From positions 310,001-374,000 of the forward strand of contig NC_017583.1 of the NCBI RefSeq assembly GCF_000184345.1: a stretch of 64,000 nt of DNA, read 5' to 3'. Shown in pieces: positions 27,333-32,799 of the stretch. Numbering within the stretch: the first letter of the stretch is position 1; each line of letters opens with the position of its first letter. Source of the stretch: Spirochaeta thermophila DSM 6578 (GTDB taxonomy: Bacteria > Spirochaetota > Spirochaetia > Winmispirales > Winmispiraceae). A model generated the notes under the pieces. The model did no database searches, was not told the DNA's origin, and worked only from the letters and a program-made list of their open reading frames with translations. Made by a program: the position numbers and the translations under genes.

Positions 27333-27363
27333 GCCCCACCCCGAAAGGGTGGGGCCTCTTTTC
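27333..27363 (+). terminator. Intrinsic terminator after the LPP20 lipoprotein
   Basis: A 9 bp stem (27333-27341 with 27347-27355), a 5 nt loop, then CTCTTTTC. Confidence 0.88.
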
Positions 27364-27415
27364 TGGTGTGTTGCATATGCGACGATCTGTCGAAGATGAG
27401 AAAGAGGAGCGTACC

Positions 27416-28876
27416 ATGAGACACGTGAGCGGTTGGTTCTATGCGGCACTCGCCGTACTCTTTTTCTCCACGTGCACCTCTCCTGGATCCGCCAGGAAAG
27501 AGGCCCCTCCGGATTGGGTCCTCTCTCCGCCCCAAGGTGACGACCGCTACGAGTACTTCGTGGGGTACGCGGTCGACCCTTCGAGCAGGGTGAAGGCCGA
27601 GGATGCGGCCACGCAGGCCCTCATCTCCGAGATCATGCGTTTCATGGGGGTCCGTATCACCGCCGAGACCACGGGCGAGGCACAGGCCTCCCTGGAAGAG
27701 TTCTCGGTGGCCCTCGGCAGGACCGTGAAGGAGGAGGGGAGCGCCCGGGTCTCGGGGTTCAAGGTGGTGGACAGATACTGGTACGAGGACGAGAACGGTA
27801 TCACGGTCTACATCCTCGCCAGGTACGAACGCGATGCCCTTCTCGAGGAGAAGGCCCGGCTCGAAGCTCTCTTCAAGGAGGCGGAGGAGGCCATTTCCGG
27901 ACCCGAACGGCGGGGTGAACGCCTTCTCATGGAGGGACGATACGCCGAGGCTGCGGTTGCCTTCCTCGATGCGGCACGGGCTGCGGCCTCGAGTTCCCTC
28001 GAGAACCGCGAGGTGCGGTTCCAGCGGAACCTGGACAAGGCCGTGCGGGCCTTGCAACCGCTCGAGATAGAGGTGCTGCGGGACAATCTCACCACTTATG
28101 TGGGTGAAGCGTTCCCTGCTGAGTTCCAGGGGAGGGTGGTGCGAGAGGGAGAGGGGGTCGTGGGTGCCACCCTGCTCATCTCCTACCGCGAGACTACGTC
28201 CGCAGGGAGGACGCGGGTCCGTACCGTCCCCGTGGTCACGGGGGATGGCGGTGAGTTTTCGTTCTCGCTCCCCGTGATGCAGGTGCCGGGGAGCGGGGAG
28301 ATCACGGTGCGGCTCGATCTCTCGTCGGCACTCGAGCTCCTGGAAGATCTTCCCGGAACCTTCCGGGAGGCCGCGGATGCGGTGAAGAAGGTGGTGCTCT
28401 CCAAGCAGGCGGTGTTCCACTACAGGGTGGAATCGCGCAGCAAGACGGTGCCCACGGGGGTGCTCATCCTCGACCTCGATTCCTCCGGAGGACTCCTCAA
28501 GGAGCGCGGCACCGAGAGAGGGCTCATGAGGCTCCTCTCGCAGGAGGGATTCTCCCTCAAGGGTATCCCCGAGGGCGTGGAGACGCTCTCGAAACAGGGG
28601 GAGGAGGCCTTCGTGTCGTGGGCCCGCGCGCGCGGGGACATCGCGAGGGTGATCGTGGGGAATGCGAGGATCGACGAGTTCTCCGAGGACGGCGACGGGG
28701 TGATGGTCCGGGTGAGTGGCTACGTGAAGGTCGTGGATCTCGTGACCGGTCGGGTGATCGCCACCGTCGAGGCCTTCAAGCGGGCTCGGGGGAGGTCGGC
28801 CGAGGTCGCCCTCGCCGCGGCCTTCGCGAGCCTGGGTGAGGTCCTGGGCGAGAAGGTCCTCGCCTCGCTCCCGTAG
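27416..28876 (+). CDS. Large LPP20-type lipoprotein with coiled middle
   Basis: A 486 aa lipoprotein. The signal ends in FFSTC and the mature part begins TSPGS. Residues 30-150 are an LPP20 module (PDWVLSPPQGDDRYEYFVGYA, then ATQALISEIMRFMGVRI). A helical, alanine-rich stretch (about 150-200) follows, then a beta-sandwich-like segment, and a C-terminal module reminiscent of the CsgG/GNA1162 fold (VIVGNARIDEFSEDG). The start at 27416 has AGAGGAG six bases upstream; 16 upstream codons in frame were discarded. It probably works with the preceding lipoproteins at the outer membrane; no function is established. Confidence 0.78.
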   Translation: MRHVSGWFYAALAVLFFSTCTSPGSARKEAPPDWVLSPPQGDDRYEYFVGYAVDPSSRVKAEDAATQALISEIMRFMGVRITAETTGEAQASLEEFSVALGRTVKEEGSARVSGFKVVDRYWYEDENGITVYILARYERDALLEEKARLEALFKEAEEAISGPERRGERLLMEGRYAEAAVAFLDAARAAASSSLENREVRFQRNLDKAVRALQPLEIEVLRDNLTTYVGEAFPAEFQGRVVREGEGVVGATLLISYRETTSAGRTRVRTVPVVTGDGGEFSFSLPVMQVPGSGEITVRLDLSSALELLEDLPGTFREAADAVKKVVLSKQAVFHYRVESRSKTVPTGVLILDLDSSGGLLKERGTERGLMRLLSQEGFSLKGIPEGVETLSKQGEEAFVSWARARGDIARVIVGNARIDEFSEDGDGVMVRVSGYVKVVDLVTGRVIATVEAFKRARGRSAEVALAAAFASLGEVLGEKVLASLP

Positions 28877-28888
28877 ATCCCCTCCGAT

Positions 28889-28938
28889 GACACACCCCCG
28901 GATTTTTCGTATCTTTGTGGTACATCCGGGGGTGTGTC
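28889..28938 (+). promoter_or_regulatory. 14 bp perfect inverted repeat masking the mnmE ribosome site
   Basis: gacacacccccgga (28889-28902) is the exact reverse complement of tccgggggtgtgtc (28925-28938), with 22 nt between. The second arm contains the only Shine-Dalgarno-like stretch (GGGGGT) and ends one base before the ATG. If transcribed, it would form a very stable hairpin closing the mnmE ribosome site. No T-run follows, so it is not a standard terminator. Confidence 0.8.
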
Positions 28939-28939
28939 T

Positions 28940-30289
28940 ATGTATCGACTCGATGATCGTATCGTGGCACTCGCCACGCCGTGGGGGAGGAGCGCCATCG
29001 CGGTGATCAGGGCCTCCGGTGCCGGATGCCTCGAGGCGCTCGATCCGCTCTTCAGGGGGAGGAAGACGCCTTCCTCCATGAGAGGCTACTCCCTCGCCCA
29101 TGGGGCCCTCGTGGATCCCGGGACCGGTGAGATGCTGGACGAGGTGCTCCTCGCGGTGTTCAGGGCGCCTCACAGCTATACGGGGGAGGATGCGGCGGAG
29201 ATATCCTGTCACGGCAGCCCCGCCGGAGTGGAGCGGATCATGCGGACCTTGCGCGCCCATGGGTTTCGGGCCGCCGAGCCTGGGGAGTTCACCTTGAGGG
29301 CCTTCCTCAACGGGAAGCTGGATCTCACCGAGGCGGAGGCGGTGCACGAGGTCGTTTCGGCTCGCACGGCGAACGCGCACACCCTCGCCCTTCACCGGCT
29401 GGAGGGGAGGCTCCGGGCGCGCATCGATGCGATAAAGGAGAAGATCGCTTCCGTAGTGGCCGAGGTGGAGGTGCAACTCGACTACCCGGAGGAGGACGTC
29501 GAGCACCCGGTGAGCGCCCACCTCATCCAGGAGGCATCGCACGAGGTGGACGGGTTGCTCGCCACGTATCGGGTGGGAAGGCTCTACCGGGAGGGGGTCC
29601 GTGTGGTGCTCGCCGGAAGGACCAACGCGGGAAAGTCCTCGCTCTTCAACCTCTTCATGAGGGAGGACCGGGCCATCGTCTCGGAGGTGCACGGTACCAC
29701 GCGCGACTACCTCGAAGGATGGATCTCGCTCAAGGGTGTGCCGGTGCTCCTCTACGACACTGCGGGGATCCGCGACGGGGGGGATCCCGTGGAAGCGGAG
29801 GGGATCCGGCGGACGAGGGAGATCCTCTCCCATGCGGACGCGGTGATCTATCTGGTGGACGGCACGGAGGGCCTCTCCGAGGGGGAGGAAGCGCTCATCG
29901 CGGAGTTGGGTGCAGAGCGGCCCTTGATCCCGGTGTGGAACAAGGTGGATGCCTCGGCCGTGCTCCCCCCGCCGGAGGGGTTCATCCCACTGAGCTGTCG
30001 TACGGGTGAGGGCTTTGCCCGGCTCGAGGAGACCCTCCATCGTGTCTTCCCCGAGGCGGAGGGGGGAGGAGCCGAGGTGGTGATCGATTCCGAGCGGCAG
30101 AGGGATGCCCTCGTGCGCTGCAGGGACTCCCTCGAGGGGGGGCTCGATGCCCTCTCCCGGGGAGCGCCGCTCGACGCCCTTGCCGTGTACCTCCACGACG
30201 CCATGGAGGCCCTCGGAGAGATCACGGGCGAGGTGACCCGCGAGGACATCCTGGAACGGATCTTCTCGTGTTTCTGTGTGGGAAAGTGA
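28940..30289 (+). CDS. mnmE: tRNA modification GTPase MnmE
   Basis: K+-activated GTPase that with MnmG installs the carboxymethylaminomethyl group on wobble uridine of several tRNAs. The 449 aa length is normal. The N-terminal folate-binding domain includes FTLRAFLNGKLDLTEAEAV. The G domain has GRTNAGKSSLF (G1), DTAGIRD (G3) and WNKVD (G4). The C-terminus ends in FCVGK, corresponding to the family's C-x-G-K tail with the catalytic Cys. ATG 28940 was chosen over GTG 28934, which would sit in the ribosome site. A long inverted repeat covers its leader. mnmG follows 6 nt later. Confidence 0.97.
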   Translation: MYRLDDRIVALATPWGRSAIAVIRASGAGCLEALDPLFRGRKTPSSMRGYSLAHGALVDPGTGEMLDEVLLAVFRAPHSYTGEDAAEISCHGSPAGVERIMRTLRAHGFRAAEPGEFTLRAFLNGKLDLTEAEAVHEVVSARTANAHTLALHRLEGRLRARIDAIKEKIASVVAEVEVQLDYPEEDVEHPVSAHLIQEASHEVDGLLATYRVGRLYREGVRVVLAGRTNAGKSSLFNLFMREDRAIVSEVHGTTRDYLEGWISLKGVPVLLYDTAGIRDGGDPVEAEGIRRTREILSHADAVIYLVDGTEGLSEGEEALIAELGAERPLIPVWNKVDASAVLPPPEGFIPLSCRTGEGFARLEETLHRVFPEAEGGGAEVVIDSERQRDALVRCRDSLEGGLDALSRGAPLDALAVYLHDAMEALGEITGEVTREDILERIFSCFCVGK

Positions 30290-30295
30290 GGGATC

Positions 30296-32155
30296 ATGGA
30301 CGCTGATGTCATCGTCATAGGGGGCGGCCATGCGGGGATAGAGGCCGCCCTGGCGGCGAGCAGGTTGGGATGTACTACCCTGCTCATCACGCAGCTCTTG
30401 GACACCATCGGAAAGATGTCCTGCAATCCGGCCGTCGGGGGACTCGCCAAGGGGAACATCGTGCGCGAGGTGGATGCCCTGGGCGGCGAGATGGGACGGC
30501 TCATCGACCGGACCATGATCCAGTTCCGTATGCTCAACAGGAGCAGGGGACCGGCGGTCCAGTGCCCCCGGGCGCAGGCGGACAAACAGGCCTATGCGCA
30601 GCGTGCCAAGTGGAGCCTCGAGCAGCAGAAGGGGCTCTTCCTCTTCCAGGACACGGTGGTGGACTTCGTGCTCGACGAGGCGGGAAGGGAGATCCGCGGG
30701 GTGGTGACCGAACGCGGGAGACGATTCCATGCGAGGAAGGTGGTCCTCACCACAGGGACCTTCATGGAGGCGAAGATCTTCATCGGTGAGTACGAGACGC
30801 CGGGGGGAAGGCTCGGCGAGCCGGCCGCGTGTGGACTGGGGGGCGTGCTCCGCCGTCTCGGGTTCACCGTGGGGAGGCTCAAGACGGGAACCCCTGCCCG
30901 GGTCCTTCGAAGCTCCCTCGACTTCTCCAAGATGCAGGAACAGCCCGGTGACGAGGAGATCATCCCCTTCTCCTTCTCCCATGACACCCTCGAGGTCCGT
31001 CAGGTCCCCTGCTACATCACCTTTACCACGCCCGAGACCCACAGGATCATCAGGGAGAACCTCCATAGGTCGCCCCTCTACGGCGGGAGGATCGTGGGGA
31101 GGGGGCCGAGGTACTGCCCTTCCCTCGAGGACAAGGTGGTGCGGTTCCCCGACCGGGACAGGCATCAGGTGTTCGTGGAGCCCGAGGGACTCTCGACCGA
31201 GGAGATGTACCTGAACGGCATTTCATCCTCGCTCCCCGAGGAGGTGCAGGAGGCCTTCATCCACACCATCCCCGGACTGGAGCATGCCGTCATCATGCGC
31301 CCCGGGTATGCCGTGGAGTACGACTACGTGGAGCCCACCCAGCTCTATCCCACGTTGGAGACCAAGCGCATACGGGGACTCTACATCGCAGGTCAGACCA
31401 ACGGCACCTCGGGGTACGAGGAGGCGGGAGGCCAGGGGCTCGTCGCGGGGATCAACGCCGCACTCGCGTGCAGGGGAGAGCCCCCCCTCGTCCTGGGGAG
31501 GGACGAGGCCTACATAGGGGTGCTCATTGATGATCTGGTCACCAAGGGGACGAAGGAGCCCTATCGGATGTTCACCTCGCGCGCCGAGTACCGTCTCGCC
31601 CTGCGTCACGACACGGCCGACATCCGTCTCCTGGAGAAGGCCTACAGGATCGGTCTGCAATCCCGCGAGATGTTCGACCGACTACAGGAGAAGATCCATG
31701 TCCTCGATGCGATAAAGGAACTCCTCCGTCAGCGCCGGCTCACCCAGGAAGAGGCCGAGCGGCGGGGGCTCCCCCAGCTCGCCCCCCACGTGGGCAAGCC
31801 GCTCTACCAGGTGCTCAAGGATCCCCGTGTCACGCTGGACGATCTGGCCTTCCTCGTACCCGAACTCTCGAAGTATCCCCGCCCGTGGGTGCGGACCGCC
31901 GAGATCGACGTGAAGTACGAGGGGTATCTCCTCAGGGAACAGCAGATGGTGGAGAAGTTCAGGAAGATGGAGGACATGAGGATCCCCGACCACTTCGACT
32001 ACTCGGAGGTGGAGGGCCTTTCCTCCGAGGCGAGGGAGAAGCTCTCGACGATACGCCCCCTCTCCCTGGGACAGGCCTCGCGCATCTCGGGGATCCGAAG
32101 TTCCGACATCGCGGTCCTCATGGTGTATCTCTCCCGGTCGAGGAAGGCCCAGTGA
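30296..32155 (+). CDS. mnmG: tRNA uridine 5-carboxymethylaminomethyl modification enzyme MnmG
   Basis: FAD/NADH-dependent partner of MnmE, 619 aa. The Rossmann FAD motif DVIVIGGGHAGIEAA is at the N-terminus. The GidA signatures CNPAVGGLAKGNIVREVDALGG and GTFMEAKIFIGE are present, with AGQTNGTSGYEEAGGQG in the middle and the helical MnmE-binding C-terminal domain (ISGIRSSDIAVLMVYL) at the end. GAGGGATC precedes the ATG. Its stop TGA shares a base with the rsmG start. Confidence 0.97.
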   Translation: MDADVIVIGGGHAGIEAALAASRLGCTTLLITQLLDTIGKMSCNPAVGGLAKGNIVREVDALGGEMGRLIDRTMIQFRMLNRSRGPAVQCPRAQADKQAYAQRAKWSLEQQKGLFLFQDTVVDFVLDEAGREIRGVVTERGRRFHARKVVLTTGTFMEAKIFIGEYETPGGRLGEPAACGLGGVLRRLGFTVGRLKTGTPARVLRSSLDFSKMQEQPGDEEIIPFSFSHDTLEVRQVPCYITFTTPETHRIIRENLHRSPLYGGRIVGRGPRYCPSLEDKVVRFPDRDRHQVFVEPEGLSTEEMYLNGISSSLPEEVQEAFIHTIPGLEHAVIMRPGYAVEYDYVEPTQLYPTLETKRIRGLYIAGQTNGTSGYEEAGGQGLVAGINAALACRGEPPLVLGRDEAYIGVLIDDLVTKGTKEPYRMFTSRAEYRLALRHDTADIRLLEKAYRIGLQSREMFDRLQEKIHVLDAIKELLRQRRLTQEEAERRGLPQLAPHVGKPLYQVLKDPRVTLDDLAFLVPELSKYPRPWVRTAEIDVKYEGYLLREQQMVEKFRKMEDMRIPDHFDYSEVEGLSSEAREKLSTIRPLSLGQASRISGIRSSDIAVLMVYLSRSRKAQ

Positions 32156-32799
32156 TGCAGGATCCCGCCTCCCTCCTCGACCGCGGGCTCGCCCTCCTCG
32201 GCCTCTCGCCCACCCCCTCCCAGCGCGCCGCCCTCCTCTCCTACCTCCACCTCCTCGCCGAGTGGGGCTCTCGCATCGATCTGGTCGCCGACCCTTCGCC
32301 CGAGGCCCTCGTGGTCCACCTGCTGGACTCCCTCGCTCCCCTCCCTCACCTCCGCGCGTTCCTCTCCTCCCCCCTCGCCGACCTGGGGAGCGGTGCGGGC
32401 CTTCCGGGCATCCCTCTCGCCATCATGAACCCCCACCTGGAGGTCCTCCTCGTGGAGGCACGCGAGAAGCGGGCCGTGTTCCTCGAGCACGTCCTCCTCT
32501 CCGTCGACCTCGCGCGGTGCACCGTCCTCCACGCCCGCCTCGAAGACCTCCCGCTTCACGTACCCTGTGCCGTTGCGCGCGCCTTTCTCCCCCTCTCGCC
32601 CGGCACCCTCCCCCTCTACCTCCACCCCCTCTCCCCCGGTGCACACCTCCTCCTCTACAAGGGGAGGCTCGAGACCGCGCAGGAGGAGGCCCGCCTGCTC
32701 CGCCCTCATTTCGAGGAGGTGGAAGCCGTTCCAGTTTCGGTCCCGTTCCTGGATACGCCCCGCAGCCTCATCGCAGCCAGGGGCAGACTTCCCGTGTGA
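32155..32799 (+). CDS. rsmG: 16S rRNA (guanine-527-N7) methyltransferase RsmG
   Basis: SAM-dependent methyltransferase (GidB), 214 aa. The SAM site is DLGSGAGLPGIPLAI; the N-terminal LLAEWGSRIDLVADPS and the VARAF segment are typical. The start overlaps the mnmG stop (TGATG), so translation is coupled. Unlike its neighbours the reading frame is extremely rich in Leu, Pro and cytosine. The familiar gidA-gidB pairing is conserved, here with mnmE in front. Confidence 0.93.
   Translation: MQDPASLLDRGLALLGLSPTPSQRAALLSYLHLLAEWGSRIDLVADPSPEALVVHLLDSLAPLPHLRAFLSSPLADLGSGAGLPGIPLAIMNPHLEVLLVEAREKRAVFLEHVLLSVDLARCTVLHARLEDLPLHVPCAVARAFLPLSPGTLPLYLHPLSPGAHLLLYKGRLETAQEEARLLRPHFEEVEAVPVSVPFLDTPRSLIAARGRLPV

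Follow-up and report, generated by a model that had tools for sequence, protein, structure and literature searches.

The stretch of DNA analyzed here, referred to as the window, comprises 64,000 nucleotides of the genome of Spirochaeta thermophila DSM 6578. It harbors mnmE, the first gene of the tRNA-modification operon mnmE-mnmG-rsmG (Table 1). The gene directly upstream is co-directional with mnmE, gave no match in Pfam and probably has its true start at the ATG at 27416. Between its stop codon and mnmE lies a perfect inverted repeat, which would form a hairpin starting 12 nt past the stop. A terminator-like hairpin (GCCCCACCCCGAAAGGGTGGGGC CTCTTTTCTG, window positions 27333-27355) was also observed further upstream, between two genes that precede mnmE; given this hairpin, the immediate upstream neighbor of mnmE may be transcribed from a promoter of its own.

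Table 1. Genes and sequence elements at the mnmE locus, with examples of the insertion sequence discussed below. Positions refer to the window unless another locus is named; L003 is the second genome of the genus and L004 a genome of the sister genus.
Feature	Position	Strand	Remarks
Upstream gene, uncharacterized, lipoprotein-like N-terminus	27368..28876	+	stop codon TAG 28874-28876
-35-like hexamer ATGACA	28887-28892	+	overlaps the start of the first arm; TTGACA in L004
First arm	28889-28903	+	GACACACCCCCGGAT
Loop, 20 nt	28904-28923	+	TTTTCGTATCTTTGTGGTAC; 5 further pairs possible (GTATC/GGTAC)
-10-like hexamer TATCTT	28910-28915	+	inside the loop; identical in L003 and L004
Predicted transcription start	28922-28924	+	about 7 nt past the -10; where the loop ends or on the first position of the second arm
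Second arm	28924-28938	+	ATCCGGGGGTGTGTC; contains SD-like GGGGGUG 28928-28934
mnmE, 449 aa	28940..30289	+	Pfam TrmE_N, MnmE_helical
mnmG (gidA)	30296..32155	+	Pfam search
rsmG (gidB) region	32095..32799	+	frame matches PF02527
Insertion sequence, examples	L132:9807-9857, L140:1501-1551, L141-L143		left end GGGACTGTAACATCGAG...

A perfect inverted repeat over the ribosome-binding site of mnmE

The repeat (28889-28938) consists of two 15 bp arms separated by a 20 nt loop. A first-pass annotation of the letters had recognized it as perfect, which holds, and had given 14 bp arms and a 22 nt loop, which is one pair short. In agreement with that annotation, the second arm covers the only Shine-Dalgarno (SD) candidate of mnmE, GGGGGUG, and the repeat ends one base before the start codon, with a single T (28939) between the dyad and the ATG at 28940. 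Folding of the dyad region as RNA yielded a z-score of -4.7, and none of 200 shuffled sequences folded equally well.

To place the dyad against its genomic background, a sample of 464 kb of the same genome was used, consisting of the window and 20 further stretches. An order-2 Markov model of this sample predicts about 0.4 perfect dyads of at least 15 bp with a loop of 3-60 nt per 2.56 Mb, so that the position of the mnmE dyad is improbable rather than its existence. For a dyad of this kind a few bases upstream of a start codon, the chance amounts to about 0.002 per genome (approximately 2,300 starts; our own arithmetic, made post hoc), in line with the very low chance that had been assigned to such a spot before. 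Within the sample, the mnmE dyad ranks second in length among perfect dyads whose loop does not exceed 60 nt and first among those abutting a start codon, and the remaining clear SD-hiding dyads all belong to one transposon family with 11 bp arms. In a shifted control, short start-abutting dyads (10-12 bp) were about as numerous; as a class, such dyads therefore do not stand out, and only the 15 bp mnmE case and the insertion sequence family do. When ranked by total fold energy before the start, mnmE comes 5th of 346 in the sample. Strong hairpins are thus no rarity ahead of genes; it is the exact cover of the SD that is rare.

Allowing up to 2 mismatches, the arms were found 8 times genome-wide (2 of these being the dyad itself) versus 6 times for a reversed-pattern control. 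An origin of the arms from a repeat or mobile element was rejected, as they are unique in the genome beyond the chance level.

A predicted promoter embedded in the repeat

The dyad is spanned by a sigma70-like promoter (ATGACA, 17 bp, TATCTT), the single match in a consensus scan of 1.2 kb in which 0.1 were expected. It agrees with the consensus at 9/12 positions in all, corresponding to moderate strength. The center of the dyad (28913.5) coincides with the -10 element, which thus sits in the loop where the first-pass annotation had indicated a possible promoter, and the -35 element overlaps the start of the first arm. Both L003 and L004 carry the promoter at this place with an unchanged spacer length, and in L004 it matches the consensus more closely.

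From the geometry of this promoter, transcription is predicted to start where the second arm begins. The mnmE mRNA made from it would then lack the first arm and could not form the hairpin, and its leader of about 16-18 nt would be essentially the second arm. The repeat had previously been proposed to act as a translational switch, with a start inside the second arm named as evidence against it; the predicted start speaks against such a switch on the RNA of this promoter.

Among the Spirochaetia, predicted promoters close to the start codon of mnmE are strongly enriched: 17 of 33 mnmE loci carry one matching at least 9/12 positions within the last 60 nt, versus 2.1 in shuffles, and at least 8/12 positions are matched near the mnmE start at 25 of the 31 loci with a usable start. 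At 18 of those 25 loci, 6-12 nt separate the end of the -10 from the ATG, from which a leaderless or nearly leaderless mnmE mRNA is predicted for most Spirochaetia (loci including L005-L031). The genus of the window and its sister genus differ from most Spirochaetia by a short predicted mnmE leader with an SD.

The mnmE upstream region in related genomes

In L003, whose MnmE is 98% identical, the dyad is kept with 13 bp. The one difference from the window within the 50 bp of the dyad, A28902T, breaks the apical (14th) pair. As the two genomes differ locally at 87 of 4347 positions (about 2%), one change in 50 bp is what the background leads to expect. The comparison for covariation that had been suggested earlier covers two genomes of a single genus, about 2% diverged, since these are the only ones with the dyad and the next relative, L004, is without it. 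A scan of genome contigs detected no further genome of this genus, and no dyad in a comparable place was detected at the other Spirochaetia mnmE loci.

L004 belongs to the same family and has an MnmE that is 55% identical. Its mnmE follows the same upstream gene, and the promoter reads TTGACA, 17 bp, TATCTT, without a dyad. In its place, between the upstream stop codon and the -35, L004 harbors an intrinsic terminator (L004:1410-1445) with a 13 bp stem and a T-run (AAAGGGATACCGC TTT GCGGTATCCC, then TTTTTT), which runs directly into the mnmE -35. This terminator separates the upstream gene from the promoter, both shared with the window, and, as proposed for the mnmE hairpin of the window, would insulate mnmE from read-through. 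Unlike that hairpin, it acts on transcription, by stem and T-run, and overlaps neither the promoter nor the SD. In the window, no terminator-like site was called between the upstream stop codon and mnmE on either strand. The mnmE hairpin itself was rejected as an intrinsic terminator, as its stem lacks a T-run. Taken together, the two genomes are most simply read as both shielding mnmE from transcription that enters from upstream, L004 by termination and the window by masking the SD on read-through RNA.

Predicted folding of two transcripts and the proposed role of the hairpin

Winmispira (formerly Spirochaeta) thermophila is a thermophile with a growth optimum near 65 °C. The accessibility of the ribosome-binding site was modeled at temperatures between 37 and 80 °C. 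For RNA entering from upstream and containing both arms, opening of positions 28928-28942 is predicted to cost 27.7-28.5 kcal/mol at 37 °C and 17.6-17.7 kcal/mol at 66 °C. The predicted cost for RNA starting at the promoter within the repeat (at 28922 or 28924) is 3.0-7.1 kcal/mol at 37 °C and 1.0-3.4 kcal/mol at 66 °C; in the longer fold of this RNA, the model leaves the SD still partly paired with downstream sequence.

We put the probability at about one half that the hairpin silences translation of mnmE on read-through mRNA, while mRNA from mnmE's own promoter escapes. According to this model, mnmE would be driven by its own sigma70 promoter, with the first arm overlapping the -35 and spacer and the loop holding the -10. 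The resulting RNA would begin at the 5' edge of the second arm, with a leader of about 16-18 nt, a free SD and no hairpin. We assume that polymerase reads through from the upstream gene, behind which no intrinsic terminator is predicted; such transcripts would contain both arms and fold into the 15 bp hairpin, the SD would be buried up to one base before the AUG and mnmE would not be translated. Transcription from upstream would thereby be kept from contributing to mnmE expression, the insulation being translational.

The main rivals of silencing on read-through RNA are an incidental palindrome and, after it, an element of the upstream gene's 3' end. In the first case, an inverted duplication or template switch would have made the promoter region and the leader complementary to each other, and the hairpin would have no selected role, as mnmE's own mRNA would never contain it. 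The restriction of the dyad to one genus fits this explanation, with L004 of the same family lacking it, and so do its divergence at background level, in which the only change breaks a pair, and the expectation that chance supplies about 0.4 dyads of 15 bp per genome. It has to be set against the improbability of an exact SD cover one base before the start codon, and the dyad sits just where the sister genus keeps its terminator; we therefore regard an incidental origin as unlikely, albeit a serious competitor. The same coincidence in place with the L004 terminator would be accounted for if the hairpin protected the 3' end of the upstream mRNA, terminated weakly or were cut by RNase III to separate the messages, and a stem of 15 bp with 5 further pairs would suit such a role. 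However, the stem lacks a T-run behind it (TATGTATCG), the terminator scan called nothing there and the abutment of the second arm on the start codon is left unexplained, which makes a 3' end element rather improbable.

Two further possibilities had been raised in the first-pass annotation. A protein bound to both arms might repress or activate the promoter between them, as the position of the -10 at the dyad center and the overlap of the arms with the -35 and the start would allow. Such a DNA operator is nevertheless distinctly improbable: the arms are not in excess genome-wide and do not recur at other genes, neither arm is palindromic and L004 keeps the same promoter without the dyad. Least credible is a thermosensor or a ligand- or tRNA-linked switch in the mnmE leader, for although the SD is fully paired in the transcript with both arms, its predicted unpaired probability stays at about 0 over the whole range of 37-80 °C, so that melting at growth temperature is implausible as a switch, a search of the region against Rfam gave nothing near the gathering threshold and the own-promoter transcript would lack the first arm.

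A comparable arrangement occurs in an insertion sequence of the same genome. This Mutator-family (PF00872) element, present in 26 copies, carries a perfect dyad with 11 bp arms (GGGGTATCTCC, 24-26 nt, GGAGATACCCC, ATG) directly before the transposase start codon, and the dyad holds the transposase SD. The arms are identical between copies, while at least 4 loop sequences occur; an invariant stem with a variable loop suggests selection for a fold-back that would silence read-through RNA. In IS10 and IS50, read-through RNA folds and hides the start of the transposase gene, whereas RNA from its own promoter does not. On the basis of its SD-hiding dyad, the insertion sequence recalls this protection from external promoters, which the silencing proposed for mnmE would share. 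In IS10 and IS50, however, the protected gene is that of a mobile element and the structure arises from the element's end sequences. The insertion sequence shows that SD-hiding dyads at start codons are used in this genome, but alone it is no proof of the mnmE case. A separate perfect dyad of 12 bp (ATAATGATAGCG/CGCTATCATTAT, 12 nt loop; L132:2294-2329, given strand) was observed just ahead of the SD and start codon (ATG) of an opposite-strand frame of 576 codons, and is operator-like.

The closest counterpart of the mnmE site is gene e of phage T4. Longer RNA initiated upstream folds so that lysozyme synthesis drops 100-fold, while RNA from late promoters, which are located where the 5' strand is encoded, lacks that strand and is translated (PMC3014915). 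As predicted for mnmE, the promoters thus lie within the sequence for the 5' strand of a hairpin that hides the SD (PMC3014915). At mnmE, folding predicts a stable hairpin whose 3' arm holds the SD, and the promoter inside the hairpin and the RNA without the 5' arm are predicted from the sequence only. The mnmE stem is longer than that of gene e and perfect. The T4 promoters are late promoters and the developmental switch was demonstrated experimentally, whereas at mnmE a sigma70 promoter and a chromosomal tRNA-modification operon are concerned, and the mechanism is a prediction. The SD is likewise hidden in upstream-promoter RNA in the leaders of I-TevI, encoded in the T4 td intron, and similar homing endonucleases (PMC3014915), I-TevI differing from mnmE in being an intron-encoded phage gene. 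The mnmE site would accordingly match the design of T4 gene e, a known kind. A literature search returned no promoter-embedded SD hairpin of chromosomal genes, which is a weak negative.

Only tentatively, we extend the silencing of read-through RNA to a more general proposal, that in the chromosomal housekeeping operon mnmE-mnmG-rsmG a promoter-embedded, isoform-selective hairpin replaces a terminator, and that the similar device of the insertion sequence transposases points to a wider habit of this thermophilic lineage. If the proposal is true, a solution of the phage and transposon type, in which the ribosome site is hidden on the wrong transcript, would have taken the place of a terminator in a chromosomal tRNA-modification operon. 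The case would also caution that an SD-hiding dyad read from DNA need not act on the main mRNA of a gene, as the position of the promoter decides which transcript folds.
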